Assembly: GCF_000444995.1 (NCBI RefSeq)
Contig: NC_022049.1
Location: 62,001-126,000 of the forward strand
Direction of reading: 5' to 3'
Length of the DNA: 64,000 bases
From: Paracoccus aminophilus JCM 7686
GTDB taxonomy: Bacteria > Pseudomonadota > Alphaproteobacteria > Rhodobacterales > Rhodobacteraceae
Below are positions 3,001-16,365 of this stretch, in pieces. The notes under the pieces are model-generated. The model had not been told where the DNA came from. It ran no database searches and saw only the letters and a list, made by a program, of their open reading frames with translations. The position numbers were made by a program, and so were the translations under genes. Every line of letters begins with the position of its first letter. Position 1 is the first letter of the stretch.

Positions 3001-3152
3001 TCAAGGCCCGCCGCCGCATTCGGGGCGATCTCGAGGATCAGCTGCGGACGACCGAAACCCGAGACCGCGCCCACGGTTTCATGCGCCCAGATCTGGCGTT
3101 CCGCGCCGGAAAGCGGCAGCGCATCCTGCGTCAAACGGATCATTTCGTTCAC
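1..3152 (-). CDS. Siderophore non-ribosomal peptide synthetase, C-A-T-TE module (3' end outside window)
   Basis: Reading the minus strand, a condensation domain covers roughly residues 5-420. An adenylation domain follows, with YTSGSTGKPKG near residue 573, NGYGPTE, YRSGDL and the catalytic lysine K916 in NPNAKLDR. A carrier domain has its phosphopantetheine serine in GARSL (S971). A thioesterase domain starts with LYCFPG and is cut by the window edge. The gene starts either at GTG 3152 (GTGA overlap with the MbtH stop) or at ATG 3143; residue numbers use the ATG. The condensation active-site motif HHxxxDG reads HPLLGDA (residues 134-140), so the second, catalytic histidine is missing. Neighbours making N-hydroxyornithine and its acyl derivative point to a hydroxamate peptide. 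One module ending in TE suggests iterative use, as in EntF or VbsS. The amino acid activated is not deduced. Confidence 0.93.
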   Translation of the reverse strand, partial: MNEMIRLTQDALPLSGAERQIWAHETVGAVSGFGRPQLILEIAPNAAAGLEAALAALIAAHPAFRSRFVTHPGGEVFRELTETPQIALRKLAGSADPEAAIRAALSTLELNRETGPLAAVLLAPAPDGRQVLALTLHPLLGDAATLFAMEDWLIAALSCEAPPAFALAPLPAPVGREALQGWRKLLEADQEEGRDEGYVIARLPQRHGRAETTARAGLSLILDARTPDPETALIAAFAALLARYSGGDSLRFALSQPSLDPARRGEDRLPFTFDYDPAEGFDALTTRIAQTQAEITAARLPSEALVQDMLRHSGADRHPLGALALHLRRLPALPAGIRRLETPRPPAEGEAVFLAEITPDGAVHLSIDHAAGLHEPALLARFATQLDRLLAAGLAAPARPLAMIPLVSEAELDALSAPYPDAEENDPRATHDIIAARARETPEKTAIICGARQWCHGEMNAAANRLAHRLIALGVGAETPVAILIERGGEAIIAILAALKAGGAYIPVEPDHPESRNHHILTDAGVRVVLTRTRFLDRLPAGLAAHVLCIDDLPPGEFADTDPEVAIHPDQLAYVMYTSGSTGKPKGVAVEHGPLSLHNQTTSRVYGMSSESRELPFLPFSSDGGHERWMVPLMAGGSVVIPDGPLWTPEQTLAAMRHHGCNNASIPTTYLQQLAEWAEATGEAPPMRLYSFGGEGLAQTTFDLLSRALNAKTLINGYGPTETIMTPMVWRVEAGTRFDGAYAPLGRAVGDRRAYVLDPDLMPCPIGVVGEIHLGGSGVARGYVGRPGTTADRFIPDPFGPSLGGPDGARLYRSGDLGRWREDGTIEFLGRVDLQVKLNGYRIEPGEIEAALLAQPGVSEALVLLREEEGEKRLIGYVVAPPDVTGETLLHRLETLLPKHMIPAAVVVLDRMPTNPNAKLDRAALPLPGKVQRKGAGIAPETEAETQILRLWREETGYESLGTTDDVFQMGARSLIALKVLARMRQIWPKVQLTVADLFDAPTVRGLAARITAGDATGRSAILLRATGTRPRLYCFPGLLVSTREYLRLT

Positions 3153-3361
3153 TGCACGCCCCCCATCGCCTGACGCAAAGCGAGCGGACGCGGGTCCTGC
3201 CACAGCTCTTCGATCCGCGCGAGGCAATCGGGGCGGCTGGCGCGCGTGCCCTCGTCCTCCCAACCGGCGGGGAGGGGATATTGGCTGGGCCAGACGGAAT
3301 AACGGCCCTCGGCATTGCGCAGAATGCGCCAATCGGTGCGGCTGGTAAATGAGCGGGTCAT
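3149..3361 (-). CDS. mbtH: MbtH-family NRPS accessory protein
   Basis: A 70-residue protein with the MbtH signature: NAEGRYSVWP near the N-terminus, then PAGWEDEG, and the C-terminal W-x-DPRPLALR block. MbtH proteins bind and activate or stabilise the adenylation domain of the partner NRPS in the cytoplasm. The stop codon overlaps the NRPS start (GTGA), so the two are translationally coupled. The start ATG at 3361 is set by homology; longer in-frame reading upstream has no MbtH similarity. A GGTGAATTT-N14-CGTC promoter element lies about 40-67 bases upstream. Confidence 0.93.
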   Translation of the reverse strand: MTRSFTSRTDWRILRNAEGRYSVWPSQYPLPAGWEDEGTRASRPDCLARIEELWQDPRPLALRQAMGGVQ

Positions 3362-3401: not shown

Positions 3402-3428
3402 GACGGATGGCGCGCGGGGAAATTCACC
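3402..3428 (-). promoter_or_regulatory. Predicted ECF sigma promoter P1 (mbtH-NRPS)
   Basis: Minus-strand GGTGAATTT at 3428-3420, a 14-base spacer, then CGTC at 3405-3402. The same element with the same spacing occurs at 3513-3539 and 5684-5710, each upstream of a siderophore biosynthesis gene. The layout fits ECF promoters, with an AT-containing -35 and a CGTC -10. Confidence 0.65.
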
Positions 3429-3435
3429 CCAAGCC

Positions 3436-3452
3436 GGGCGAAATTTTCGCCC
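3436..3452. promoter_or_regulatory. Palindrome between divergent siderophore promoters
   Basis: GGGCGAAA-T-TTTCGCCC has perfect 8-base arms around one base. It sits between the divergent P1 and P2 elements, where a repressor or activator could act on both. The protein that binds is unknown. Confidence 0.45.
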
Positions 3453-3512
3453 CCTCCGTTTTGGGCCCCGTTTCGGCCTCCCGTTTTAGGCGCCGTGATT
3501 TTGCCGCCGCGC

Positions 3513-3539
3513 GGTGAATTTCTCCGCCCCTCGCCCGTC
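3513..3539 (+). promoter_or_regulatory. Predicted ECF sigma promoter P2 (PLP enzyme-esterase)
   Basis: GGTGAATTT at 3513-3521, a 14-base spacer and CGTC at 3536-3539, identical in core and spacing to P1 and P3. It lies about 70 bases upstream of the ATG at 3611. Confidence 0.65.
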
Positions 3540-3610
3540 AGGCAAAAAGCCCGCGCCCGTCGCGCGCCCGATCTTTTCATCCCGGGACCAGCGCCCGAAA
3601 GGAGCCGCCC

Positions 3611-4807
3611 ATGAACCAGCATCTCGCCCCCGAGACCCTAGAGCCCCCCGCGACCCCCGATCTGAACAGCCTGCTTCTCGCCCCGCGCGCGGCGCAGGCC
3701 CATCACGCGACCGCCGTGCCGATCTATCAGACCGCGAGCTTCCTTTTCGAGAGCTACGACGAGCTCGCCGCGGTCTTTGCCGGGACCTCGGATCGCTTCA
3801 TCTATTCGCGCGGCAACAACCCGACGGTGGCCGAGCTGGAAAGCGTGATCGCCGCGCTTGAAGGGGTCGAGGCGGCGCGCGGATTTGCCTCGGGCATGGG
3901 CGCGATTGCCGCCGCGATCATGCCTTTCGTGCAGGCGGGCGACCGGGTCGTGGCGGTGGAAAACCTCTATTCCGACGCCTTCCGGCTCTTCGAGGTCGTG
4001 CTGAAGAAATTCGGCGTCACCACCGATTATGTCGATGGCAGCGATACCGAGGCGGTGATTGCGGCTTTGCCGGGCGCCAAGCTGCTCTATCTCGAAAGCC
4101 CGACGAGCTGGACCTTCACGCTGCAAGATCTCGCCCCGATCGCCAAGGCCGCCAAGGCCGAGGGCGTGCTCACCGTCATCGACAATTCCTGGGCGACGCC
4201 GCTTTATCAGCGCCCGGCCGAGCTTGGGATTGATCTGATCATCCATGCCGCCTCGAAATATCTTTCAGGCCACAGCGATACGATTGCCGGGCTCGTTTGC
4301 GGGCCGAAGGCGCTGATCGATCGCATCAACCACGAGGCCTATCATTACCTCGGCGCGAAAATGTCGCCCTTTGACGCGTTTTTGGTGCTGCGCGGGCTGC
4401 GCACTCTGGGCCTGCGCATGGCGCGGCATATGGAAAACGGCCTCGCTTTGGGGCGCGCCTTGCAGGACCATCCCGCCGTGACCCAGATCCGCCATCCGGG
4501 CTTTCACGACCACCCCGCCCGCGCCGCGCTTTCGGGCTATGGCGGGCTTTTCGCCTTTGACTTTGACGCGAGCGTCGATGTCCCCCGTTTCGCCAATAGC
4601 CTGCGCCTCACCCGGCTGGGGGTAAGCTGGGGCGGGGCGGAAAGCCTGATCATCCCGGGCGAGGCCGCGATCGGGCTCGCGGGGGCCTCGAACTCCTTCC
4701 GCCGCTTCAAGGTCAGCCCGCGCACCATTCGCTTCGCGGCGGGGCTGGAAGAGCCGGGCGCCTTGGTCGAAGATGTGCTGCAAGCAATCGAAAAGGCGCG
4801 GAAGTGA
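3611..4807 (+). CDS. PLP-dependent trans-sulfuration family enzyme (cystathionine gamma-synthase/beta-lyase type)
   Basis: A 398-residue Cys/Met-metabolism PLP enzyme of normal family length. YSRGNNPT (phosphate-binding region), DNSWATP (the aspartate contacting the pyridine nitrogen) and the Schiff-base lysine K216 in AASKYLSGHSD are all present. AGGAG stands 7 bases before the ATG. Members act on cystathionine, O-acyl-homoserine, methionine or cysteine; the substrate cannot be chosen from sequence. Its place matters: it has an ECF-type promoter, faces the mbtH-NRPS operon, and overlaps the following esterase by 4 bp (GTGA). That suggests a role in siderophore building-block supply or salvage rather than housekeeping methionine synthesis, which is an inference. 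Confidence 0.88.
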   Translation: MNQHLAPETLEPPATPDLNSLLLAPRAAQAHHATAVPIYQTASFLFESYDELAAVFAGTSDRFIYSRGNNPTVAELESVIAALEGVEAARGFASGMGAIAAAIMPFVQAGDRVVAVENLYSDAFRLFEVVLKKFGVTTDYVDGSDTEAVIAALPGAKLLYLESPTSWTFTLQDLAPIAKAAKAEGVLTVIDNSWATPLYQRPAELGIDLIIHAASKYLSGHSDTIAGLVCGPKALIDRINHEAYHYLGAKMSPFDAFLVLRGLRTLGLRMARHMENGLALGRALQDHPAVTQIRHPGFHDHPARAALSGYGGLFAFDFDASVDVPRFANSLRLTRLGVSWGGAESLIIPGEAAIGLAGASNSFRRFKVSPRTIRFAAGLEEPGALVEDVLQAIEKARK

Positions 4808-5688
4808 CGAAAATCGTGAAGGAAGGCGTGCTCGGTCTTGGCGGGGCGCGCTGGTTTGATCTCGAAGACAGCGCGAGCGGCGCGGTGCGGCGGGTCTTTT
4901 TGTGGATCCCCCCCGGCGAGGCGCCCGAGGCCGGTTGGCCCGCCTTGATGCTGACCGATGGCAATGCGGTGATCGCGACCGCGATTGATGCGATGCGCGC
5001 GCAGGCCTTTTACCCCTCGGGCACCAATCTTGGCTGGGGCGTGCTGATCGCCATCGGCTATCCGACCGACGAGGCCTATGACCCGTTTCGCCGCAGCTGG
5101 GATCTCGGCCCGCCGCCCGGCGCGACCTATCCGCCCTTCTGGGAGGGCACGCCCGAGGTCAAGACCGGGGGCGGCGCGGAAATGGCGCGCTTTTTGCTCG
5201 ACGAAGTCCGCCCCTTCGTCGCCGCGCGCGTGCCGCTTGACCTCGCCCATCAGGGGCTTTTCGGCCATTCCTTCGGCGGGCTCTTCGCGCTGTGGCTGAT
5301 GTTCACCCGGCCCGACGCCTTCAGCCATTGGATCGCCGCCAGCCCCGCGATCACTTGGGAGGAAAGCTTCCTCTTGACCCATCGCGACGGCTTCGCGCCC
5401 AAGGGCAAACCGCTCTCGCTGCTCTTGTCGGCGGGCGAATGGGAGGGGGCCGCGCTCGCGCCCTTCCAGATCGGGGCCGAGGATGCCGACAAGCGCCTCG
5501 CGGAAAAAGAGCGCATCCGCACCATCGCGGCTGCCGAAGAGATGGCCGGGCATCTGGATAAGATTCAAGGGATTTCAGCGCATTACGAGACATATGCCGG
5601 TGAAACCCATATGTCGGTCCTGCCGGTTGCGGTGAACCGCGCGCTCCACCACGTCTTCGCGCTCAAGAAAAACGCAAGCGTGGGGTGA
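4804..5688 (+). CDS. Alpha/beta-hydrolase, IroE/Fes-like siderophore esterase
   Basis: A 294-residue protein of the esterase D/enterochelin esterase fold. The nucleophile S156 sits in GHSFGG, and the presumed catalytic histidine is H269 in ETHMS. The block FTRPDAFSHWIAASPAITW is typical of IroE-like proteins. It starts at GTG 4804, overlapping the preceding stop. No signal peptide is visible, so it should be cytoplasmic and could open an ester-linked ferric siderophore after import. That is consistent with a thioesterase-released, ester-cyclised trihydroxamate, but the chemistry is inferred from context. Its stop codon lies inside promoter P3. Confidence 0.85.
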   Translation: MTKIVKEGVLGLGGARWFDLEDSASGAVRRVFLWIPPGEAPEAGWPALMLTDGNAVIATAIDAMRAQAFYPSGTNLGWGVLIAIGYPTDEAYDPFRRSWDLGPPPGATYPPFWEGTPEVKTGGGAEMARFLLDEVRPFVAARVPLDLAHQGLFGHSFGGLFALWLMFTRPDAFSHWIAASPAITWEESFLLTHRDGFAPKGKPLSLLLSAGEWEGAALAPFQIGAEDADKRLAEKERIRTIAAAEEMAGHLDKIQGISAHYETYAGETHMSVLPVAVNRALHHVFALKKNASVG

Positions 5689-5710
5689 ATTTTTCGGGGG
5701 CTCCTGCGTC
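5684..5710 (+). promoter_or_regulatory. Predicted ECF sigma promoter P3 (acyltransferase-hydroxylase)
   Basis: GGTGAATTT at 5684-5692, 14 bases, CGTC at 5707-5710. The element includes the stop codon of the esterase gene and lies about 56 bases before the acyltransferase ATG. Confidence 0.65.
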
Positions 5711-5765: not shown

Positions 5766-6803
5766 ATGACGTTTGACCTTCCCCCTTTCGACCTTCCGGA
5801 CCCCTTTCTCGCGCGGCGCGACGGCGCGCGGATCTTGCTGGCGGGGCCCGCGCCCCAAAGCCTCGGCCTGCGCGATGCGGGCGAGGGGCGGCTCTGGCCC
5901 GCTTGCCCTGAGGGCGGTCTGCCCGCCGCGCTCGCGGTCTTCGAGGCGCTGAGCGCAGGCCCGGACGAGGTCGTCCTGATGCTCGATCCCGCGCCTTGGG
6001 CCGCGCTTTTGCCCGAGCTGCACGCGCGCGGCATCGCGGTGCCCTTCGAGGGCGCTTTCGCGGTCTTTCCCGCGCTTTTCTGGCAGGTGCCCGACCGCTG
6101 GCTGGCCCATGCAGCGCCGCCTTTCCCCGAGCTTTTCCGGCGCGGCCCGCATGGCCGCCATCCCCTGCGCCCGCCGAAACCCGAGGGGCTGCTCTATCGC
6201 CGCTTCATCCCTTGGCTTGGCCAATGGCTGACGCTGCGCGCGCTGGATTTGGACGATCTTCCGACCTTCCACCGCTGGCAGAACGATCCGCGCGTCGCGG
6301 CGTTTTTCGAGGAAAGCGGCACGCTGGACCAGCACCGCGCCTTGATCGAGCGGATGCTGGCCGATCCGCATCTGTTGCCGGTGATCGGCGCGCTCGACGG
6401 GCGCGATTTCGGCTATTTCGAGCTTTACTGGGCGCGCGAGAACCGGCTCGGCGCGGTCCATGATTGCGCGCCTTGGGACCGCGGCTGGCATGTGCTGATC
6501 GGCGAAGAGGATATTCGCGGCGCCGAACATGTCACCGCCTGGCTGCCCGCGCTCATGCATTACATGTTCCTATCCGAGCCGCGGACCCGCACGATTCTGG
6601 GCGAGCCCAAGGCCAGCCATGTCCAGCAATTGCGCAACCTCACGCGCGGCGGCTTCGGCAAGATCCGCGACTTCGATTTCAGCCATAAGCGCGCCGCTTT
6701 GGTCGCGCTCGATCGCCAGCATTTCTTCGACGCCCGGCTCTGGGCGCGCCCGCCCGAAAGCGATGGCCGCCCGCTTCGCCTGTCCCCGACGGTTCTTCTT
6801 TAA
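5766..6803 (+). CDS. Siderophore acyltransferase, IucB/RhbD/VbsA-like GNAT
   Basis: A 345-residue protein whose C-terminal half is the GNAT domain of siderophore acyltransferases. LTLRALDLDDLPTFHRWQND opens the domain and FGYFELYWA and RTILGEPKASH follow. The family transfers an acyl group from CoA to the N-hydroxyl amine of hydroxylysine or hydroxyornithine, forming the hydroxamate. The start ATG at 5766 has AGGAA 7 bases upstream; an earlier in-frame start would place the N-terminus inside the esterase gene. It precedes the amine hydroxylase by 11 bases, so the two hydroxamate steps are co-transcribed. Confidence 0.9.
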   Translation: MTFDLPPFDLPDPFLARRDGARILLAGPAPQSLGLRDAGEGRLWPACPEGGLPAALAVFEALSAGPDEVVLMLDPAPWAALLPELHARGIAVPFEGAFAVFPALFWQVPDRWLAHAAPPFPELFRRGPHGRHPLRPPKPEGLLYRRFIPWLGQWLTLRALDLDDLPTFHRWQNDPRVAAFFEESGTLDQHRALIERMLADPHLLPVIGALDGRDFGYFELYWARENRLGAVHDCAPWDRGWHVLIGEEDIRGAEHVTAWLPALMHYMFLSEPRTRTILGEPKASHVQQLRNLTRGGFGKIRDFDFSHKRAALVALDRQHFFDARLWARPPESDGRPLRLSPTVLL

Positions 6804-6814
6804 GGTCTTTTCCC

Positions 6815-8149
6815 ATGTCCGAAGCTTTTCTTTCCGAACCTTTCCGCCCCGATCAAGCCCACCCCACTCAGGCCCACCCCGACCACATCCACGAGCTGAT
6901 CGGCATCGGTTTCGGCCCCTCCAACCTCGCGCTGGCGATTGCGCTTGAGGAGCGCCAGAGCGGGCTCGATGCGGTCTTTCTCGAAGCCAAGCCACGCTTT
7001 GCCTGGCATCCGGGGATGCTGCTGAAAGGGACCGATATGCAGGTCTCCTTCCTCAAGGATCTGGTGTCGCAGCGCAATCCGACCTCGGGCTTTTCCTTCC
7101 TGAGCTATCTCCATGACAAGGGGCGGCTCGAACGCTTCATCAACCGCAAGACCTTTTTCCCCAGCCGGGTCGAGTTCAATGATTACCTCGATTGGGCGGC
7201 GGGCCGTCTGGGCGGGATCTGCGCCTATGACCAGCGCGTCGAGGCGATCGAGCCGGTGCGCGCGGGCGCGGGCGTCTCGCATCTGCGCATCCACAGCCGC
7301 GACGGCGCCGGGCGCGCCACGGTGCGGCAGGCGCGCCAGATCGTGCTCGCGCCGGGCGGCCAGCCCCATTGGCCCGAGCTCTTCGCGCCTCATCGCAGCG
7401 ATGCGCGGCTCTCGCATTCCAACGATTTCACCGCCCGCGTCCTGCCCAAGCTGACGCCGGGCGAGCGCATTGCCGTAATCGGCGGCGGCCAAAGCGCCTG
7501 CGAGATCTTCGCGACGCTCGCCGCCGATCCGGCCTGCCCGCGCGTCGATCTGATCCTGCGCGGGCCTGCCCTGAAACCCGCCGATGACAGCCCCTTCGTC
7601 AATGAGATCTTCGAACCCGCTCATACCGATCTCGTCCATGCTTTGCCGCCCGAGGCGCGCGCCCAGCATCTGCGCGAGTTTGCCGGGACGAATTACGCGG
7701 TCACCGATCTCGATCTGCTCCAGCACATCTATGGCCTCCTCTACGAGCAAGAGGTCGAGGGCGCAGCGCGGTTGCGGATGATGGCCGAAACCCAGCCGGT
7801 TGGGCTTCAGACGGTCGGGCAGGGGGCGGGTCTTCATCTGACGCTGGACGCGCAGGGCCGCCGCTTCGGGCTCGATTATGACCGCATCATTTTGTGCACC
7901 GGCTATCGCCGCGAGCTTGGCCAGACGCTGCTTTCAGGTCTCGCCGACTGGCAGACCGGCGCCGCGCCGGACCGCGATTACCGGTTGCCGATGAAGCCCG
8001 GCTTCGCGCCCACCGTCCATGTTCAGGGCTATAGCGAGCCGACCCACGGGCTCGCCGATACGCTCTTGTCGGTGCTCGCGCTGCGCTCGGCGGAAATCGC
8101 CGCTTCGGTCGAGCTGGCCCGCGCGGACCGGCGGATCGCTGCCGAGTAA
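6815..8149 (+). CDS. L-ornithine N5-monooxygenase (PvdA/SidA type)
   Basis: A 444-residue FAD- and NADPH-dependent amine hydroxylase. The FAD motif GIGFGPSNL is near residue 33, the substrate region MQVSFLKDLVSQRNPTSGF follows, and VIGGGQSACE gives the NADPH site. The wording of the substrate region is closer to ornithine hydroxylases (PvdA) than to lysine hydroxylases (IucD), so N5-hydroxyornithine is the expected product. It acts first in hydroxamate formation, before the acyltransferase just upstream. Confidence 0.93.
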   Translation: MSEAFLSEPFRPDQAHPTQAHPDHIHELIGIGFGPSNLALAIALEERQSGLDAVFLEAKPRFAWHPGMLLKGTDMQVSFLKDLVSQRNPTSGFSFLSYLHDKGRLERFINRKTFFPSRVEFNDYLDWAAGRLGGICAYDQRVEAIEPVRAGAGVSHLRIHSRDGAGRATVRQARQIVLAPGGQPHWPELFAPHRSDARLSHSNDFTARVLPKLTPGERIAVIGGGQSACEIFATLAADPACPRVDLILRGPALKPADDSPFVNEIFEPAHTDLVHALPPEARAQHLREFAGTNYAVTDLDLLQHIYGLLYEQEVEGAARLRMMAETQPVGLQTVGQGAGLHLTLDAQGRRFGLDYDRIILCTGYRRELGQTLLSGLADWQTGAAPDRDYRLPMKPGFAPTVHVQGYSEPTHGLADTLLSVLALRSAEIAASVELARADRRIAAE

Positions 8150-8277
8150 GCCAGAGGTCGGCCTTGAGCGGGTCGGGAGATCGTGGCACCACAGGCTTTC
8201 TATCCACCCACGCTTCGCGCCGGCAGACGGAAACAGGACCGCCCTTTCCCGGGCCGGTCTGTGGCGTGGAGAGAGAC

Positions 8278-8814
8278 ATGTCACCCAATCCCCAAACTCA
8301 GATCAGGCCGCGTTCGCCGCGCGATCAGGCCCTGTTGCTTGATGAGCTTGTCCAAAACCGCAACCTGCTTTTATGCGACGCGCTGCGCATTCTGGGCGCG
8401 CGCGACCGCGCCGAGGATGTGCTGCAAGAGGCGGCGCTGCGCGCGCTTGGGCGCAACTCGGGCGAGACCCTGCGCGACGGGCGCCATTTCGCGCGGCGCA
8501 TGGTGCGCAACCTCGCCATCGACCGGCTGCGGCGCGAGCGCTGGCTTGCGGGCGACGAGGCGCTCGAGCGCCAGCCAAGCGCCGGGCCCGATGTCGAGCG
8601 TTGCCTTGCCGGGCGCGAGCTTCTGGGCCGGGTCGAGGCCCAGCTGCGCCAATGCCGCGCGCGCGACCGCGAGGTCTTCTTGCGCCACCGCGTCATGGGC
8701 GAGCCGCAAAACCTGCTTGCGCGCGAATTCAACCTCTCGCCTGCGCGGGTTCATGCGATCGTGACCAAGATCCACAAGGATATCAGCGCCTTGCGGATCG
8801 ACGAACCGGCCTGA
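8278..8814 (+). CDS. ECF-family RNA polymerase sigma factor (iron/siderophore type)
   Basis: A 178-residue protein with sigma-70 region 2 (DRAEDVLQEAALRAL, then RRMVRNLAIDRLRRER) and region 4 (FLRHRVMGEPQNLLAREFNLSPARVHAIV). It resembles the PvdS/FecI group. The start ATG 8278 follows GGAGAGAG. No FecR-like anti-sigma gene is adjacent, and the TonB receptor of this locus has no visible N-terminal signalling domain, so activity is more likely set by its own transcription than by surface signalling. It lies behind promoter P3 on the same strand and could be autoregulated by read-through. It is the obvious candidate for recognising P1-P3. Confidence 0.9.
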   Translation: MSPNPQTQIRPRSPRDQALLLDELVQNRNLLLCDALRILGARDRAEDVLQEAALRALGRNSGETLRDGRHFARRMVRNLAIDRLRRERWLAGDEALERQPSAGPDVERCLAGRELLGRVEAQLRQCRARDREVFLRHRVMGEPQNLLAREFNLSPARVHAIVTKIHKDISALRIDEPA

Positions 8815-8828
8815 ACCCCGACGCGCGC

Positions 8829-9623
8829 CTAGATCCCTCGGGGCAGGACCACCGGCCCCGAGGCGGTTTCCACGCAATCGAACGGAATGGCAAAGGCGCG
8901 TTCGAGCGGTGCTGCGGCCAGAACCTCGGCCGTCGGCCCATGCGCGATCAGCGCGCCGTCGCGCAGCGCAATGATCTGATCGCAGAGCCGCGCGGCCAGC
9001 GTCAGATCATGGATGATGATGACGATCTGGCGCTTGGCCGAGAGCGTTTTCAGCAGCCGCACCAGCTCGGCCTGATGGGGCAGGTCAAGGAAGTTCAAGG
9101 GCTCGTCGAGCAGGATCGTCCCGCTTTCCTGCGCCAGAACCAGCCCGATCCAGGCGCGCTGGCGCTGCCCGCCCGAGAGGCTCTCGACCCGGCGATGCGC
9201 CAGATCGCCCATGCCGGTCGCGGCAATCGCGCGCGCGACCGCCTGATGATCGGCGGGGGTCAGCGGCAGGAAGGGGCGCAACCAAGGCGTGCGACCTCGC
9301 GCGACCAGCTCGCGCACCGTGAGCCCGGGCGGGGCCTCGCCGGTTTGCGGCAAAAGCGCAATCGCCCGCGCGCGCGTCTTGGGCGAGAGCCGCGCCAGAT
9401 CCTGCCCGCGATGGCGGATCTCGCCCGCCGTGGGGCGCAAAACCCCCGCGAGGCTGCGCAACAGCGTGGTCTTGCCGCAGCCATTCGCGCCAATCAGCCC
9501 GGTGATCCCGGGCGTTATCTCAAAGCTGAGATCGCGCAGGATCGCCGCGCCGCCAAGCGTCACCGAGAGGTTGCGCACCGCGAAGATCGGGCCGCTCATC
9601 TGCGTGGTTTCTGTCTCGATCAT
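8829..9623 (-). CDS. Siderophore ABC transporter, ATP-binding protein (FepC/FhuC type)
   Basis: A 264-residue ATPase with Walker A GANGCGKTT, signature [10 protein letters not shown] and Walker B GTILLDEP followed by the expected H-loop (IIHDLTLAA). It powers inner-membrane uptake of ferric siderophore with the two permeases encoded immediately upstream on the same strand (6-base gap). GAGGGG precedes the start at 9623. It is convergent with the sigma factor gene, with only 14 bases between stops and no clear terminator. Confidence 0.93.
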   Translation of the reverse strand: MIETETTQMSGPIFAVRNLSVTLGGAAILRDLSFEITPGITGLIGANGCGKTTLLRSLAGVLRPTAGEIRHRGQDLARLSPKTRARAIALLPQTGEAPPGLTVRELVARGRTPWLRPFLPLTPADHQAVARAIAATGMGDLAHRRVESLSGGQRQRAWIGLVLAQESGTILLDEPLNFLDLPHQAELVRLLKTLSAKRQIVIIIHDLTLAARLCDQIIALRDGALIAHGPTAEVLAAAPLERAFAIPFDCVETASGPVVLPRGI

Positions 9624-9629
9624 GGCCCC

Positions 9630-10595
9630 TCAGCTCCGATTGCGGCGGAACTCTCCGGCCAGCACGATCAGAAGGATCGGCGCACCGATGAGCGCGGTAT
9701 AAAGCCCGGTGGGCAGGAAGGTCGCGGGTGAAATCGCGCGCGCGAGCAGATCGGCCAGCGTCACGAAACCCGCCCCAATCAGCGCCGCCGCGACGGGCGC
9801 GGGACGGCCTCCCGCCAAGCGGCGCGAGAGCGGCCCCGAGGCCAGCGCGACAAAGCCCAAAGGCCCGGCGAGTGACACGGCCCCCGCCGCGACCAGCGCG
9901 GCGAGCAGCGCCAGAGCAATGCGTGAGGCCGCGACCCGCAGCCCCAAGGCGCGCGCCAGATCATCGGTGAACTCCAGCCGATCAAGCAGCCGCCCGGCGA
10001 GCAGAAGAGGCACCATCAAAGGCAGGATGCGCGCGGCTTGGCCGATCTCGGCCCAGCCCGCGCCATTGAGCGTGCCGGTCAGCCAAGTCATCGCCATGCC
10101 CGCCGCGCCGTCATTGGCGCGCAGGATCATCGCCTCGGTCCCGGCGCTGGCAAAAATCGCAAGGCCCAGCCCCTGCAGGACCACGGCGCGCGACGAGAGC
10201 CCACTGCGCCGGTCCCAAGCCAAGGCCCCGATCAGCGCCATGCCGCAGAGACCGCCCGCCCAGGCGCCGAGCACGGTCGAGCCGCCCGCGAGCATCGCCG
10301 CGACCGCGCCAAAGGCCGCGCTCTGGGTAACTCCGATAATATCTGGCGAGGCCAAGGGGTTGCGCAAAAGCGTCTGGAAGGTCAGCCCCGCGAGCCCCAA
10401 AGCCGCGCCCGCAAAAAGCCCGAGCAGAAGGCGGGGCAGGCGCAGGCTCCAGACCATGCGGCCTGCGCCCTCGGGATCGCCAAGCGCGGCCCAAAGCGCG
10501 CCGGGGGGCAGCCAGTTGCGCCCGGCGGCCAGCGCGGCTGCGGCCAGCGCCAGCACTCCGGCGGCAAGGGCGAGATGGCGCAGCGGCACCCTCAT
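9630..10595 (-). CDS. FecCD-family siderophore permease (FepG-like)
   Basis: A 321-residue polytopic membrane protein of the BtuC/FecCD family: LRLPRLLLGLFAGAALGLAG near the N-terminus, RNPLASPDIIG, and the C-terminal PTGLYTALIGAPILLIVL block. It starts at ATG 10595, overlapping the stop of the partner permease (ATGA). An in-frame extension far upstream exists, but it runs antiparallel to or out of frame with the other permease and was discarded. It forms the transmembrane channel with the next gene. Confidence 0.92.
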   Translation of the reverse strand: MRVPLRHLALAAGVLALAAAALAAGRNWLPPGALWAALGDPEGAGRMVWSLRLPRLLLGLFAGAALGLAGLTFQTLLRNPLASPDIIGVTQSAAFGAVAAMLAGGSTVLGAWAGGLCGMALIGALAWDRRSGLSSRAVVLQGLGLAIFASAGTEAMILRANDGAAGMAMTWLTGTLNGAGWAEIGQAARILPLMVPLLLAGRLLDRLEFTDDLARALGLRVAASRIALALLAALVAAGAVSLAGPLGFVALASGPLSRRLAGGRPAPVAAALIGAGFVTLADLLARAISPATFLPTGLYTALIGAPILLIVLAGEFRRNRS

Positions 10596-11587
10596 CCGCG
10601 CGCCCTCAGGATCTGGCGCACGAAGAGCATGAAGGCGGGCGCGCCGATCATGGCGAGCACCAGCCCGACCGGCAGCTCTGAGGGGCGGATGGCGATGCGC
10701 CCGATCGTGTCGGCACTCAGTGCCAAGGCCGCGCCAAGCGGGGCCGAGATCAGGATCAGCGCGGTCAGGCTCGACCCGGTCCGGCCGCTGGCGAGACGCC
10801 GTGCGAGATGGGGGGCGATCAGCCCGATAAAGCCGACCGGCCCCGCCAAGGCGACGCTCGCGCCCGCGGTCAAGGCGATTGCGCCGAGGCCAAGGCTCAG
10901 CACCCGCGCAGGCGAGACGCCAAGCGCCGCGCCGAGCTCGTCCGAGAGCATCATCGCCTCGATCCCGCGCGCCGCGATCAGCGCCAAAGCCATGCCGCCA
11001 AGCGCGACCGGCGCCAGCGCGGCCAGCCCCGGCCCATCGGCCATGGCAAGCGAGCCGACCATCCAGAAGCGATAGATATTGCGCGCCTCGGGGTTCATCA
11101 GCACGACCAGCGCCACCACCGACATGCAGATGCTGGCAAAAGCCGCCCCGGCCAAGGGCAGGCGCAAGGTGGTCTCTCCGCGCCCGGCAAGCAGCCGGAC
11201 CAGCACCGCTGCCAAAGCCGCCCCGCCAAGCGCGAGCCCCGCGACCGCGGCGCGCGGCAAGGCGCCAAAGCTCATCAGCCCCAGCACCACCGCCAAGGCC
11301 GCGCCCGCATTGACGCCGGTCAGGCTGGGGTCGGCCAAGGGATTGCGCGCGATCGCCTGCATGACCAGCCCCGCCACCGCCAACGCCGCGCCGACGACAA
11401 TCGCCGCGAGCGCGCGGGGCAGGCGCAGGCCAAGGATGAGGTCGCGGGCGGGGGTTTCCGCTCCGGTCAAGGCGCCGATGACCTCGCCCGGCGCGATCTT
11501 CTGCGCGCCCAGACTGAGGGCGGCCAGAAAGGCCAGGGCCACGAGGCCCCAAAGCAGCAGAAGCGGGAAGGCAAGCGAACGGGCCAT
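10592..11587 (-). CDS. FecCD-family siderophore permease (FepD-like)
   Basis: A 331-residue FecCD permease with about ten hydrophobic segments. Family landmarks are LRLPRALAAIVVGAALAVAG, RNPLADPSLTGVNAGAAL and the closing LPVGLVLAMIGAPAFMLFVR. It is the first gene of the minus-strand importer operon and diverges from the binding-protein gene across a 398-base gap. No GGTGAATTT-N14-CGTC element was found in front of it, so uptake may be controlled separately from biosynthesis. Confidence 0.92.
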   Translation of the reverse strand: MARSLAFPLLLLWGLVALAFLAALSLGAQKIAPGEVIGALTGAETPARDLILGLRLPRALAAIVVGAALAVAGLVMQAIARNPLADPSLTGVNAGAALAVVLGLMSFGALPRAAVAGLALGGAALAAVLVRLLAGRGETTLRLPLAGAAFASICMSVVALVVLMNPEARNIYRFWMVGSLAMADGPGLAALAPVALGGMALALIAARGIEAMMLSDELGAALGVSPARVLSLGLGAIALTAGASVALAGPVGFIGLIAPHLARRLASGRTGSSLTALILISAPLGAALALSADTIGRIAIRPSELPVGLVLAMIGAPAFMLFVRQILRARG

Positions 11588-11985: not shown

Positions 11986-12936
11986 ATGTCGCTCAAACCT
12001 TTGGCTCTTTCCCTGATCCTTGCCGCCTCGGCTTCGCCGCTTTCGGCCGAGCCGATCCATCTCAGCCACAGTTTCGGCGAGACGGTGGTTGATCCCGAGA
12101 AGGTCCAGCGCATCGTCTCCGTCGGCTATCACGAGCAGGATTTCCTCTATGCGCTCGGCCTCGCGCCGGTGGGCGTGCATGAATGGTTTGGCAAGAAACC
12201 CTATGCGACCTGGCCCTGGGCCGAGGCCGCGCGGCAGGCGGTTGGCGCTGAGCCCGAGGTGCAAAATGGCTTCGAGATCGATGTCGAATGGGTCTGGTCG
12301 CTGCAACCCGATCTGATCGTCGCGACCTTCGCGCCGATGGATCAGCGCACCTATGAGGCGCTGTCGCAGATCGCGCCGGTTTTGGGCCGCCCCGAGGGTT
12401 TTCCCGATTGGGGCGCGCCTTGGGAGGAAGAGCTGCGCTTGATGGCGCGCGCGACCGGGCGCGAGGCCAAGGCGGAAGAGATCATCGCGGGTCTTGACGC
12501 CCGGATTGCGAAATCCGTCGCGGATCATCCTGAATTTGCAGGGAAAACCGCGACGATGGCCTATTTCAACGAGGGCCAGATCGTCGGCTATCGCAGCACG
12601 GATGGCGCGAACCGGCTGCTTGGCAAGCTCGGCTTCGCCACGCCCAAAGCCTATGACGAGATGGCGGGCGCGGGCGGGAATTTCACCGTCAGCACGGAAC
12701 GGCTCGATCTTTTCGACCTCGATGCGGTGCTCTGGCTGGTCGAGCCGCCCTCGCGCGCGGTCCTTGAGGCGCTGCCGGTCTGGCCCGCGACGCGGATGGC
12801 GCGCGAGGGCCGCGCGATCTGGGCCGATCCCGAGCTCGTCGGCGCGATGAGCTTTCAATCGCCGCTCTCGATTGGCTGGGGGCTGGATCAGCTTGTGCCG
12901 GCGCTCGCCACGGCGGTGGCGGGCAAGGCGCCCTGA
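11986..12936 (+). CDS. Periplasmic ferric-siderophore-binding protein (FepB/FhuD type)
   Basis: A 316-residue protein with a Sec signal peptide (SLILAASASPLSA then EP). The mature part has the class III binding-protein fold: QRIVSVGYHEQDFLYALGL, the WSLQPDLIVAT block and a long backbone-helix region. It hands ferric siderophore from the outer-membrane receptor to the FecCD permeases. The start at 11986 follows GGAGA; a start 48 bases earlier would add residues in front of the signal peptide. Confidence 0.9.
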   Translation: MSLKPLALSLILAASASPLSAEPIHLSHSFGETVVDPEKVQRIVSVGYHEQDFLYALGLAPVGVHEWFGKKPYATWPWAEAARQAVGAEPEVQNGFEIDVEWVWSLQPDLIVATFAPMDQRTYEALSQIAPVLGRPEGFPDWGAPWEEELRLMARATGREAKAEEIIAGLDARIAKSVADHPEFAGKTATMAYFNEGQIVGYRSTDGANRLLGKLGFATPKAYDEMAGAGGNFTVSTERLDLFDLDAVLWLVEPPSRAVLEALPVWPATRMAREGRAIWADPELVGAMSFQSPLSIGWGLDQLVPALATAVAGKAP

Positions 12937-13212: not shown

Positions 13213-15402
13213 ATGCCTTCCGCCTTGTTTTCGCCGATTTCGAGCCCCTCGCGCCGGGTCCTTGCCGCGCTTTTGCTGACGGGCAGCGCCCTGAGCGCCC
13301 AGATCATCGCCCAACCCGCGCAGGCGCAATCGACCGATGCGCGCGCGCCGACCAGCGTGACGCTCGACACCGTCGTCATCGACGGCAGCCTCGAATCGCC
13401 GATTGGCGGCGGCACGGGCTATCTCGCGACCAATTCCGCGACCGCCTTCAAGGGCGGGGTGCCGCTGACCGAGACCCCGCAATCGGTCTCGACCGTAACG
13501 GAAAAAGAGCTCGACGACCGCAAGCCGCGCCAGATTCAGGACGCTTTGGCCTATGTGCCGGGCGTGACCGCCGGGATCTGGGGCGTCGATGACCGCTTTG
13601 ACCAATTCCTGATCCGGGGCTTTGATCTTGGCACCTCGGGGATCTATCGCGACAGCCTGCCGAACAAGGCGCAGAACTTCTCGGGCTTCAAGATCGAGCC
13701 CTATATGGTGCAGCGCATTGACGTTTTGCGCGGGCCGTCCTCGGTCATCTATGGCTCGAATGATGCGGCGGGGATGATCAATGTCATCTCGAAACGCCCG
13801 AAATTCGAGAATTTCGCCGAAGGCCAATTGAGCTATGGCTCGCATAAAACCGCCTCGGTCGGCGTCGATGCCGGGGGCGTGCTCGATCCGGCCAAGACGC
13901 TGGCCTGGCGGGTGACGGCCTTGCGCCGCGACGGCTCGACCGCGATCCACGATTCGGACAATGACCGCAGCCTGATCGCGCTTGGCCTGACCTGGGCGCC
14001 CACCGATCAGACCGAGGTCACCTTCCTTGGCCAATGGCAAAAGGATGCGCTGACCCCGAACTCCTTCATGCCGGTCGCGGGCGAGGATTATCCGGCGCGC
14101 TTTGGCGATCTGCCCAAAAGCTTCACCCGCAGCCAGAGCCCGTTCAACCGCTTCGCGACCGAGCAATATAGCTTTGGCTGGCAGGCGCGCCATGATCTGA
14201 GCGAGCAGCTGACCTTCCGCCAGAACTACCGCCATGCCCGCCAGAAGACCGATTACCGGCATCTCTATTTCAACGGCATGCATGATCCCGACTGGAATCC
14301 GACCGAGGATTCGATGAATTTCGCGGCTTTCGCCGTCGATGAGGTCGCGCGGCAGGACGCGATCGACAACCAGCTCGAATATCGCTCGACCGTGGCTGGG
14401 GCGGAAAACCGCGTGCTCTTGGGCGTCGATTACACCCGCCAGCAGGTCACGGGCACGGCGGCTTATGATGCGAGCTATCAGGTCGATATCCGCAATCCCT
14501 CGTTGAATTTCCCGGTCGCCTATCCGCCGATCTATTCCGACAGCCGGACCACGGTGACCGAAAAAGGCGTCTATATTCAGGACCATCTGAAATTCGACAA
14601 TGGCCTGAGCCTCACCGCCGGGCTGCGTCGGTCGTGGCTGGAAAACCGCAACCATGACCGCCTCAGCGGCACGACCACGGTGCAGAAGGACAGCGCCACC
14701 ACCGGGCTCTTCGGGCTGACCTATGACCTTGGCAATGGCTTCATCCCCTATGCGAGCTTCACGCAGGGCTTTACTGCCAATATCGGCCGGACCTTCGCGG
14801 GCGAGATCTATCAGCCGACCAAGGGCCGCCAATGGGAGGCCGGGCTGCGCTATGCGCCGACCGACCGCAACCTGCTGATCTCTGGCGCGATTTTCGACAT
14901 CACCAAGACCAATGTCCTGACCTCGGACCCGAGCAATCCCGGCTTCTCGGTCCAGACCGGAGAGGTGCGTCACCGTGGGCTGGAACTCGAAGCACGCGGC
15001 AATCTGACCGAGCAGCTCTCGCTGATCGGCGGCTATACCTATCTCGATCCGAAGATCACGCGCTCGAATGACGGCGATGCGGGCCATCTGACCCCGCTTG
15101 CACCGCGCCATCAGGCCTCGGTCTGGCTAGATTACGATTTCAGCGGCGCGGCGCAGGGACTGAGCCTTGGCGGCGGTGGGCGCTATATCGGCGCGACCTG
15201 GGGCGATACGGCGAACACCCGCCGGGTCTCGGCCTATACTTTGGCCGATGTCTCGCTGCGCTATGAATGGGACGCTTATGTCGCGGCGCTGAATGTCACG
15301 AACCTCTTCAACAAGGAGTATTTCGCGACCTGCGACGCTTCGGTCGGCTGCATCACCGGCGCCGGGCGCGAGGCGACGCTGACGCTGTCGCGCCGCTTCT
15401 AA
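13213..15402 (+). CDS. TonB-dependent ferric-siderophore outer-membrane receptor
   Basis: A 729-residue receptor. A signal peptide is followed by a TonB-box-like LDTVVIDG. The plug domain has ETPQSVSTVTEKEL, DALAYVPGV, FLIRGF and VLRGPSSVIYGS, and the beta-barrel ends in the canonical terminal phenylalanine (LTLSRRF). NVTNLFNKEYFATC is typical of hydroxamate and ferrichrome-type receptors. There is no N-terminal STN signalling domain. It sits beside its binding protein and importer, so it probably takes up the locus's own siderophore. Confidence 0.95.
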   Translation: MPSALFSPISSPSRRVLAALLLTGSALSAQIIAQPAQAQSTDARAPTSVTLDTVVIDGSLESPIGGGTGYLATNSATAFKGGVPLTETPQSVSTVTEKELDDRKPRQIQDALAYVPGVTAGIWGVDDRFDQFLIRGFDLGTSGIYRDSLPNKAQNFSGFKIEPYMVQRIDVLRGPSSVIYGSNDAAGMINVISKRPKFENFAEGQLSYGSHKTASVGVDAGGVLDPAKTLAWRVTALRRDGSTAIHDSDNDRSLIALGLTWAPTDQTEVTFLGQWQKDALTPNSFMPVAGEDYPARFGDLPKSFTRSQSPFNRFATEQYSFGWQARHDLSEQLTFRQNYRHARQKTDYRHLYFNGMHDPDWNPTEDSMNFAAFAVDEVARQDAIDNQLEYRSTVAGAENRVLLGVDYTRQQVTGTAAYDASYQVDIRNPSLNFPVAYPPIYSDSRTTVTEKGVYIQDHLKFDNGLSLTAGLRRSWLENRNHDRLSGTTTVQKDSATTGLFGLTYDLGNGFIPYASFTQGFTANIGRTFAGEIYQPTKGRQWEAGLRYAPTDRNLLISGAIFDITKTNVLTSDPSNPGFSVQTGEVRHRGLELEARGNLTEQLSLIGGYTYLDPKITRSNDGDAGHLTPLAPRHQASVWLDYDFSGAAQGLSLGGGGRYIGATWGDTANTRRVSAYTLADVSLRYEWDAYVAALNVTNLFNKEYFATCDASVGCITGAGREATLTLSRRF

Positions 15403-15434: not shown

Positions 15435-15498
15435 TTGACCCTTGGCGGGGCCGTGCGCAGATCTGAAGAGCCCCGCGCGCAGCCCCGCAAGGACAGAG

Positions 15499-16365
15499 AT
15501 GGAGACGCCCTTTTCAACCAGCGACCCGGCCAGAGATCCGGCCAGAGACCCGGCAGGTGATCCCGCCCGGCAAGCCGCGCTCGCCCGCGCCTTGGCCGCT
15601 CTGCCGGTTGCGGCGCTGGCCGTGCGCACGGATGAGGCGCTCGACAACGGTCCCCATCACCATCCGGCCGGGCAGGTGATGAGCAGCCAAAGCGGGCTGA
15701 TGACGGTGATCCTGCCCGCGCAAAGCCTGATCGTTCCGGCCAATCAATGCGTCTGGATCCCGCCCGGCACCATCCATGCGGTGCGCGCGCATGGCGCGTT
15801 TTCGGGCTGGGGCGCCTTTCTCGCGCCCGCGGCCTGCGCGCTGCTGCCGCCCGAGCCGCGCGTCTGGCGCAGCTCGGCCCTTCTGCGCGAGGCGGTCGAG
15901 CGGCTGGCAGCACTCGGCCCGGGTCTTGCCGCGGGCGCCACGCCCCGCAACCACCATCAGCGCCAGCGCAATCTCGGCGCGGTCATTCTCGACGAGCTTT
16001 GCGATCTGCGCGACGAGCCGCTGACCCTGCCCACGCCCGAAAACCCCCGCCTGCGCCGCATCACCGAAGCGCTTAGCCGCGATCCCGGAGACCGGCGCCC
16101 GCATACCGATTGGGCGCGGCTTGCGGCGGTCTCGCCGCGCACGCTGACCCGGCTGTTCCGGGCCGAAACCGGGATCAGCTTTAGCGAATGGCGCCAACGC
16201 GCCCGCGCCTTTCGCGCCTGCGAATTGCTGGAACAGGGTGTCGCCATCGGCACCATCGCCCGCGAGCTGGGCTATGACAGCGCGGGCAGTTTCATCGCGG
16301 CCTTCCGCCAAAGCTTCGGCACCACCCCCGGCGACTATGCCCGCCGCCGCGACGGGGCTCTGTAG
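15499..16365 (+). CDS. AraC-family transcriptional regulator with cupin sensor domain
   Basis: A 288-residue regulator. The N-terminal cupin-like domain includes HHHPAGQVM and IVPANQCVWIPPGTIHAV. The C-terminal AraC double helix-turn-helix has WARLAAVSPRTLTRLFRAET and IARELGYDSAGSFIAAFRQSFG. The start ATG 15499 follows AAGGA. A short Asp-Pro-Ala-Arg repeat lies near the N-terminus. Its position after the receptor suggests control of siderophore genes, but a stem-loop separates them and the target is unproven. Confidence 0.88.
   Translation: METPFSTSDPARDPARDPAGDPARQAALARALAALPVAALAVRTDEALDNGPHHHPAGQVMSSQSGLMTVILPAQSLIVPANQCVWIPPGTIHAVRAHGAFSGWGAFLAPAACALLPPEPRVWRSSALLREAVERLAALGPGLAAGATPRNHHQRQRNLGAVILDELCDLRDEPLTLPTPENPRLRRITEALSRDPGDRRPHTDWARLAAVSPRTLTRLFRAETGISFSEWRQRARAFRACELLEQGVAIGTIARELGYDSAGSFIAAFRQSFGTTPGDYARRRDGAL
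15523..15570 (+). repeat. Four tandem 12-base units encoding DPAR-like repeats
   Basis: Four successive 12-mers (GACCCGGCCAGA and close variants) encode DPAR-DPAR-DPAG-DPAR inside the AraC gene, before the cupin domain. Copy number could vary by slippage without a frameshift. Confidence 0.8.

Follow-up and report, generated by a model that had tools for sequence, protein, structure and literature searches.

We analysed a window of 64,000 nucleotides from Paracoccus aminophilus JCM 7686 (bases 62001–126000 of the 438-kb contig NC_022049.1; the genome comprises 4.87 Mb in six contigs) that carries a siderophore gene cluster. In this cluster, the original prediction had singled out three copies of a two-block element, GGTGAATTT-N14-CGTC, as a shared promoter for an extracytoplasmic function (ECF) sigma factor encoded alongside. 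All three copies occur at the predicted positions and on the predicted strands; their 9-base and 4-base blocks are identical, the spacer is 14 bases long in each, and the sigma gene follows the third copy, as predicted. The elements, which sit within one 2.3-kb stretch and each just upstream of a gene unit, are listed here with the genes that follow them.

3402..3428, minus: promoter copy 1, GGTGAATTT-N14-CGTC, before the mbtH–synthetase unit
3513..3539, plus: promoter copy 2, GGTGAATTT-N14-CGTC, before the unit of the pyridoxal phosphate (PLP) enzyme and esterase
5684..5710, plus: promoter copy 3, GGTGAATTT-N14-CGTC, before the acyltransferase–hydroxylase unit; overlaps the esterase stop codon
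1..3152, minus: nonribosomal peptide synthetase (NRPS) with condensation, adenylation and carrier domains; continues beyond the window's left edge (1285 residues counted from ATG 3143; GTG 3152 is a possible start)
3149..3361, minus: MbtH-like protein (PF03621), to be compared with the rhizobial arrangement
3611..4807, plus: PLP enzyme of Cys/Met metabolism (Pfam and NCBIfam scans)
4804..5688, plus: putative esterase (PF00756)
5766..6803, plus: GNAT acyltransferase (PF13523)
6815..8149, plus: ornithine/lysine N-hydroxylase (PF13434)
8278..8814, plus: ECF sigma factor, RpoI/PvdS-like, 178 residues (Sigma70_r2); the frame is open further upstream

The sigma protein exceeds the TIGR02937 cut-off (48.4 versus 42.9 bits). 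Genes for MbtH, NRPS, N-hydroxylase, acyltransferase, PLP enzyme and ECF sigma factor thus stand together, a set that, on our reading of the Rhizobium johnstonii cluster, defines the vicibactin (vbs) family. The product of the P. aminophilus cluster would accordingly be a vicibactin-like hydroxamate siderophore.

Specificity and position of the probable promoter element

The exact element was found three times in the window and three times in the whole genome, all inside the siderophore cluster, with approximately 0.05 genome-wide matches expected from base composition alone. When the spacer was freed to 1–30 bases, 18 exact genome matches were obtained, 3 at N14 and 15 spread over the 29 other lengths. 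With up to two mismatches the window held 5 matches against 1.19 expected, a number reached in 0 of 100 shuffles; the whole genome held 138, so only close matches to the element are specific. A weight matrix trained on 36 sites of other genomes, with the species' own sites left out, ranked the three copies 1–3 in the 64-kb window at 26.7–29.2 bits, and the runner-up, at 15.6 bits (11 below the copies), fell inside the receptor gene. Chance or repeat origin of the three copies was rejected on the basis of genome uniqueness, the spacer scan and the weight-matrix ranking.

The original prediction would have been undermined by genome-wide hits scattered at chance level away from iron genes; this outcome was not obtained, the relaxed pattern GTGAAT-N16-CGTC retrieving seven genome sites, three of them in the cluster. 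The four outside it comprise one that precedes a TauE-type exporter gene by 54 bases, two within open frames, and one for which the next 250 bases downstream hold no gene start. These four and six one-mismatch sites, nine distinct sites in all, were then examined as a possible wider regulon: five are in coding-like frames, two are in open frames that fail a codon test, and the remaining two are the site before the exporter gene and C5:425968, which has no gene start within 250 bases. Directly behind these nine sites no iron gene was found; the 138 two-mismatch matches were not gone through.

The element can also be written TGAA-N17-CGTC. Compared with the published iron-starvation (IS) box TAAAT-N16-CGT (PMC2235872 and PMC6037834), its −35 block has G in place of A. 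The −10 block CGT(C) lies at 16–17 bases from the −35 as in the IS regulon, and since TGAAT stands instead of the canonical −35 TAAAT, we class the system as a variant. The distance from the end of the −10 block to the start codon is 40 bases for mbtH (3361), 71 bases for the PLP gene (3611) and 55 bases for the acyltransferase gene (5766).

Conservation of the probable promoter pair and of the sigma factor

Related clusters were gathered with the sigma factor or the PLP enzyme as homology probe; two of them (G407 and G463) had first been seen by the motif and were then found independently by sigma homology. Of 20 Rhodobacterales loci compared, one (G679) was dropped, having a PLP-enzyme match only (52%) and no such cluster. 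The 19 that remain include near copies (Tritonibacter and G637, G607 and G674, and two Pseudosulfitobacter), and hence represent approximately 16 distinct clusters. From a contig search that gave 80 loci, L075, L076, L077 and L081 entered the cluster comparison and seven more entered the sigma comparison. Azospirillum, Ketogulonicigenium and Agrobacterium loci, which have a FecR gene near the sigma match and no such cluster, were kept outside the counts.

In the 350 bases before mbtH, all 19 clusters carry a divergent pair of sites, and together these stretches hold 38 TGAA-N17-CGTC sites, 0 TAAA at N17, and six TGAA or TAAA sites over 19 other spacings (8–27). TGAA and CGTC are invariant across the 38 sites because both served as the selection criterion; the flanks, which lay outside the selection, are conserved as well, with a preceding G in 36 sites and the following TTT in 37, 37 and 31. 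The −35 block reads TGAAT in 37 sites, as in the three copies of the window, and TGAAC in one. Most spacer columns carry little information. Nine bases after CGTC a purine is present in 37 of 38 sites, compatible with a start site at this position. Five further loci with the cluster have 10 divergent sites, of which 9 are strict; three of these loci repeat, or nearly repeat, clusters from the earlier set. Both sites are present in G762, Pseudosulfitobacter SM26-46 and Thioclava 'Guangxiensis' (the Thioclava and Pseudosulfitobacter loci being near copies of earlier ones), and the motifs of G766 are those of the Thioclava record already used.

The promoter pair also keeps company with the sigma gene. 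A sigma match lies inside the same cluster in 19 of 19, and a supported branch (99/98) separates the sigma factors of TGAA clusters from the rest. Across 125 genomes of the genus, the sigma gene (E up to 1e-12) occurs in three, and the exact motif pair, close together and on opposite strands, in the same three and in none of the other 122, the search covering exact pairs. A draw of one genome per genus in the family yielded no further clusters. In the four Rhizobiales clusters examined (R. johnstonii, Azorhizobium, Bradyrhizobium and Phyllobacterium), the pair before mbtH is TAAA-N17-CGTC in 4/4, each with a related sigma gene.

The uniqueness of the exact element, its conservation in 19 clusters, its co-occurrence with the sigma gene, and spacing and −10 of the IS-box and vbs type strongly support the ECF-promoter reading of the original prediction. 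The three elements are very probably promoters read by the cluster's own sigma factor (8278–8814), which presumably binds all three sites, with iron starvation as the likely inducing signal. In this scheme the −35 would be GTGAATTT and the −10 CGTC, with 17 bases between TGAA and CGTC; once made, the sigma factor would switch on the mbtH–NRPS, PLP enzyme–esterase and acyltransferase–hydroxylase units together, and their joint activation would lead to the vicibactin-like siderophore.

Several observations weigh against this assignment. A strict third site before the acyltransferase gene is found in only 6 of the 19 clusters. One further locus, G754, has one strict site, the other being GGAA-N17-CGTC. 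The sigma factor is only 28% identical to R. johnstonii RpoI. Finally, the helix VSRTLVNFMIK, presumed to be the one that reads the −35, is identical in the sigma factors of G238 and R. johnstonii, whose promoters are TGAA and TAAA, respectively, and therefore does not explain the change from A to G; the region 4.2 helix was rejected as its cause on this comparison. The boxes might instead be read by another ECF sigma factor or bound by a regulator such as the AraC protein. We consider this very unlikely, since the two blocks at fixed spacing with CGT have the layout of an IS promoter, the exact pair co-occurs with the adjacent sigma gene in the genus, and a sigma match is present in every cluster.

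We have high confidence in the promoter reading, and comparison with described systems shows a known type of promoter system whose −35 is variant. We take the R. johnstonii cluster to be vbs, and use its gene names, on the basis of gene position. The arrangement in R. johnstonii/leguminosarum 3841 is alike in having mbtH–NRPS divergent from a unit that contains the PLP gene, a hydroxylase gene, an ECF sigma gene and divergent CGTC sites 17 bases from TRAA. There the unit opposite mbtH–NRPS comprises acyltransferase, MATE exporter and PLP genes, whereas in P. aminophilus the exporter is absent between promoter and PLP gene, the esterase is inside the unit, the hydroxylase belongs to another unit, a third promoter is present, and the −35 is TGAATTT rather than TAAA. 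RpoI reportedly initiates transcription of vbsGSO and vbsADL in vitro (Yeoman 2003, listed among the references of PMC3420878). PvdS of Pseudomonas and its IS box share the spacing and the −10 (excerpts of PMC2235872 and PMC6037834); P. aminophilus differs in the G at the second −35 base, and no anti-sigma gene was seen in its cluster.

According to PMC9023288, OrbS of Burkholderia cenocepacia is likewise an IS ECF sigma factor without an anti-sigma factor that serves three siderophore transcription units, but these units include uptake genes, and a C-terminal cysteine cluster of OrbS senses Fe(II). In the sequence and alignment of the P. aminophilus sigma factor there is no cysteine after region 4.2, and a sensor of the OrbS type was not found. 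FecI–FecR–FecA resembles the present system in using an ECF sigma factor for iron genes. Beside the P. aminophilus sigma gene, however, there is no anti-sigma gene, its neighbours being the hydroxylase and importer ATPase genes, of which the latter follows it; the receptor lacks the STN signalling domain, with only plug and barrel recognized by Pfam. A FecR-type anti-sigma system was rejected on these grounds.

The sigma factor and its promoter appear to form a portable pair, one sigma factor with one nearly invariant promoter: in the genus, the promoter accompanies the sigma gene, and genomes lacking that gene have no exact pair. The set of clusters also offers a natural experiment in which the −35 element changes while the spacing and the −10 stay fixed. 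Related sites were observed elsewhere. TGAATTC-type sites with N17-CGTC lie near a sigma gene in Nitrosospira/Nitrosovibrio (L082 11042, L085 11067 and L086 11183), that of L082 directly before an mbtH homologue (mbtH was mapped in L082, not in L085 or L086), so the use of TGAA may extend beyond Rhodobacterales. Methylobrevis pamukkalensis carries GCTGAATTT-N14-CGTC (L076:7376, plus) approximately 1 kb upstream of a related sigma gene; NRPS, MbtH and PLP homologues were not found in the fetched stretch of this locus.

The leader of the sigma gene

Between the hydroxylase and sigma genes lies a second conserved element.

8197..8277, plus: candidate structured 5′ leader of the sigma gene (alignment, RNAalifold, complementarity to the ribosome-binding site)

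A core of the form AC-Y-N-A ... G-N-AG occurs between the two genes in 19 of 19 clusters (located by eye in G463 and G407), 47–96 bases from the sigma start codon. In 14 of the 19 this distance is not divisible by three, so the leader does not represent a conserved extension of the protein, although in P. aminophilus the frame stays open upstream. The core follows a sigma70-like −10, read by eye and weak in P. aminophilus, by 9–12 bases, and a sigma70-like promoter thus appears to belong to the sigma gene itself. Inspection by eye of the stretch before the R. johnstonii sigma gene revealed no comparable leader. A stricter form of the pattern still detects the element upstream of 13 of the 19 sigma genes and also has three matches elsewhere, one of which precedes a binding-protein gene by 228 bases.

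RNAalifold predicted a hairpin of 6 pairs in which 95.6% of cells are paired, a value reached by 0 of 500 shuffles, with slid versions at 45% or below; as the hairpin was derived from the same alignment, this test is supportive rather than independent. It replaced a first candidate helix (A1 columns 15–18 with 27–30), which was no better than shuffles. A four-pair loop helix in the G238-type subgroup is weaker (75% paired, 9 of 500 shuffles). In the window the hairpin joins 8203–8212 with 8218–8227, and the leader's own fold is unexceptional (z = −1.3; 21 of 200 shuffles fold as well). We built two search models, one with the hairpin pairs (R2) and one of sequence only (R1). Among the 13 training genomes R1 recovered 12 leaders, all but that of G293. 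In four further leaders, two of which are near copies of training rows, R2 found 4/4 (20.7–35.8 bits) and R1 3/4; those of G754 and G762 each break one hairpin pair. Searched against the P. aminophilus genome, R2 matched only the sigma leader (E = 3.5e-4). Its scores in 13 congeners that lack the sigma gene were as high as 23.8 bits, equal to those of weaker true leaders, and a whole-genome search missed the leader of G762. Rfam 15 gave no match in window 8100–8400 at E up to 5, and none at gathering scores in seven related loci, six of them with the leader.

Bases 8208–8213, within the 5′ strand of the hairpin, are complementary to 8264–8269 at the ribosome-binding site (RBS). Such pairing was assessed in 16 representative leaders by permuting RBS regions among genomes. 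The core pairs with its own RBS at a mean of −16.19 kcal/mol, compared with −12.77 (sd 0.70) after permutation (0 of 20,000 as low, z = −4.9), the 5′ half contributing more (z = −4.6) than the 3′ half (z = −2.5). Eight control segment pairs ranged from z = −2.1 to +0.9, the lowest being the core against coding bases +4 to +28 (104 of 5,000). Taken singly, 5 of 16 leaders beat their own shuffles at 5%, the window's leader is not significant (0.157), and six (G361, Gemmobacter caeni, Thioclava, G238, G293 and G741) have no excess pairing.

The hairpin and the RBS duplex share the same 5′ strand and are therefore mutually exclusive, which, if both form, is the architecture of a translational switch and suggests that the sigma factor is under RNA-level control. 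Since the leader RNA can pair with the RBS, translation of the sigma gene is probably regulated. We tentatively propose, at somewhat less than even confidence, that the iron-starvation sigma factor of Rhodobacterales is controlled by a new class of cis-acting 5′ leader RNA switch. In addition to its own sigma70-like promoter, the gene would have a conserved leader that adopts either the hairpin UCnACYnAGS...SCnnRGCAGA or a duplex of the hairpin's 5′ strand with the RBS, and a signal (metal ion, heme, pH, small RNA or protein) would decide sigma synthesis and hence the whole siderophore pathway.

Alternatively, the element before the sigma gene could be a DNA operator rather than an RNA structure. 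A palindromic iron box was sought there by eye only and set aside; one such box, the Iron-Rhodo-box, was reportedly defined by Rodionov in 2006. An operator bound, for example, by IscR at such a box would suit the position of the element just after the presumed −10, a place at which a repressor might act, and Rhodobacter iron genes are repressed by IscR (PMC4618611, in part). The RNA evidence is moreover mixed, given the signal of the coding-base control and the six leaders without excess pairing. We nevertheless regard an operator as unlikely, because the Iron-Rhodo-box is a 19-bp palindrome (same excerpt) whereas the centre of the leader element varies in length, and because the element shows paired changes and complementarity to its own RBS over 16 leaders.

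If the RNA switch is real, it adds control at the RNA level to a sigma family for which the source excerpts report Fur, anti-sigma factors and the OrbS cysteine sensor, and the question of what the leader senses becomes directly testable. Among the matches listed, titles and abstract openings of the literature on RpoI/vbs, Rhodobacterales vicibactin, riboswitch–ECF sigma pairs and Paracoccus hydroxamates describe neither the promoter variant nor the leader. The leader is the part likely to surprise specialists, and it stands as a testable prediction.

Synthesis and uptake genes

Downstream of the sigma gene the window contains the uptake genes and a regulator.

8829..11587, minus: siderophore importer ATPase and two FecCD permeases; no box in front
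11986..12936, plus: periplasmic siderophore-binding protein; no box in front
13213..15402, plus: TonB-dependent receptor (Pfam plug and barrel only); no box in front
15442..16365, plus: AraC-type regulator; no box in front

The lack of a box before any of these genes in the window agrees with the original prediction that the sigma factor governs synthesis and not uptake, and the importer, receptor and AraC genes must consequently be controlled otherwise. That division holds for P. aminophilus, as judged by the motif, and not as a rule. Up to 330 bases upstream of uptake-type genes were scanned in relatives. By a separate count, 43 of these genes, from 14 of the 19 clusters, begin a gene unit, and they include ATPase paralogues located beyond the cluster; in the other five clusters the fetched stretch has no uptake-type unit start. 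The scan gave one match, AGTGAATTT-N14-CGTC before the TonB receptor gene of the congener G407 (L070:7479, minus), which suggests that this receptor has been recruited to the sigma regulon in that species. Synthesis without uptake under the sigma factor would thus be the usual state.

The second unit adds a further complication, as its esterase may hydrolyse the siderophore for iron release. A homologue stands in a receptor–ABC gene row of Agrobacterium rubi, but that of Shinella is not in an uptake gene row; iron release is thus a possible role. On this basis the sigma factor might govern siderophore utilisation together with synthesis, and 'synthesis, not uptake' would be no functional rule. 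The esterase in the presumed regulon, its homologue within the A. rubi uptake row and the boxed G407 receptor gene speak for this; we find it plausible but on balance doubtful, in that the G407 receptor is the only boxed uptake-type gene in the scan of relatives and the Shinella homologue lies outside any such row.

The clusters also vary in gene content. On pYEE1 of Paracoccus yeei (L225 11690–13412) there is a remnant of a related cluster, with the esterase in two pieces and a piece of the importer ATPase; the fetched stretch has neither a sigma match nor a box pair. In 16 of the 19 clusters the promoter and the PLP gene are separated by approximately 1.3–1.5 kb, a stretch that the L156, L157 and L162 annotations assign to a MATE exporter and that is missing in P. 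aminophilus (window 3540–3610), G407 and G283. Pseudosulfitobacter SM26-46 (L226 7425–8380) has an IS6-family transposase gene in the NRPS position after mbtH and keeps the promoter pair and the exporter, PLP, esterase, acyltransferase, hydroxylase and sigma genes.

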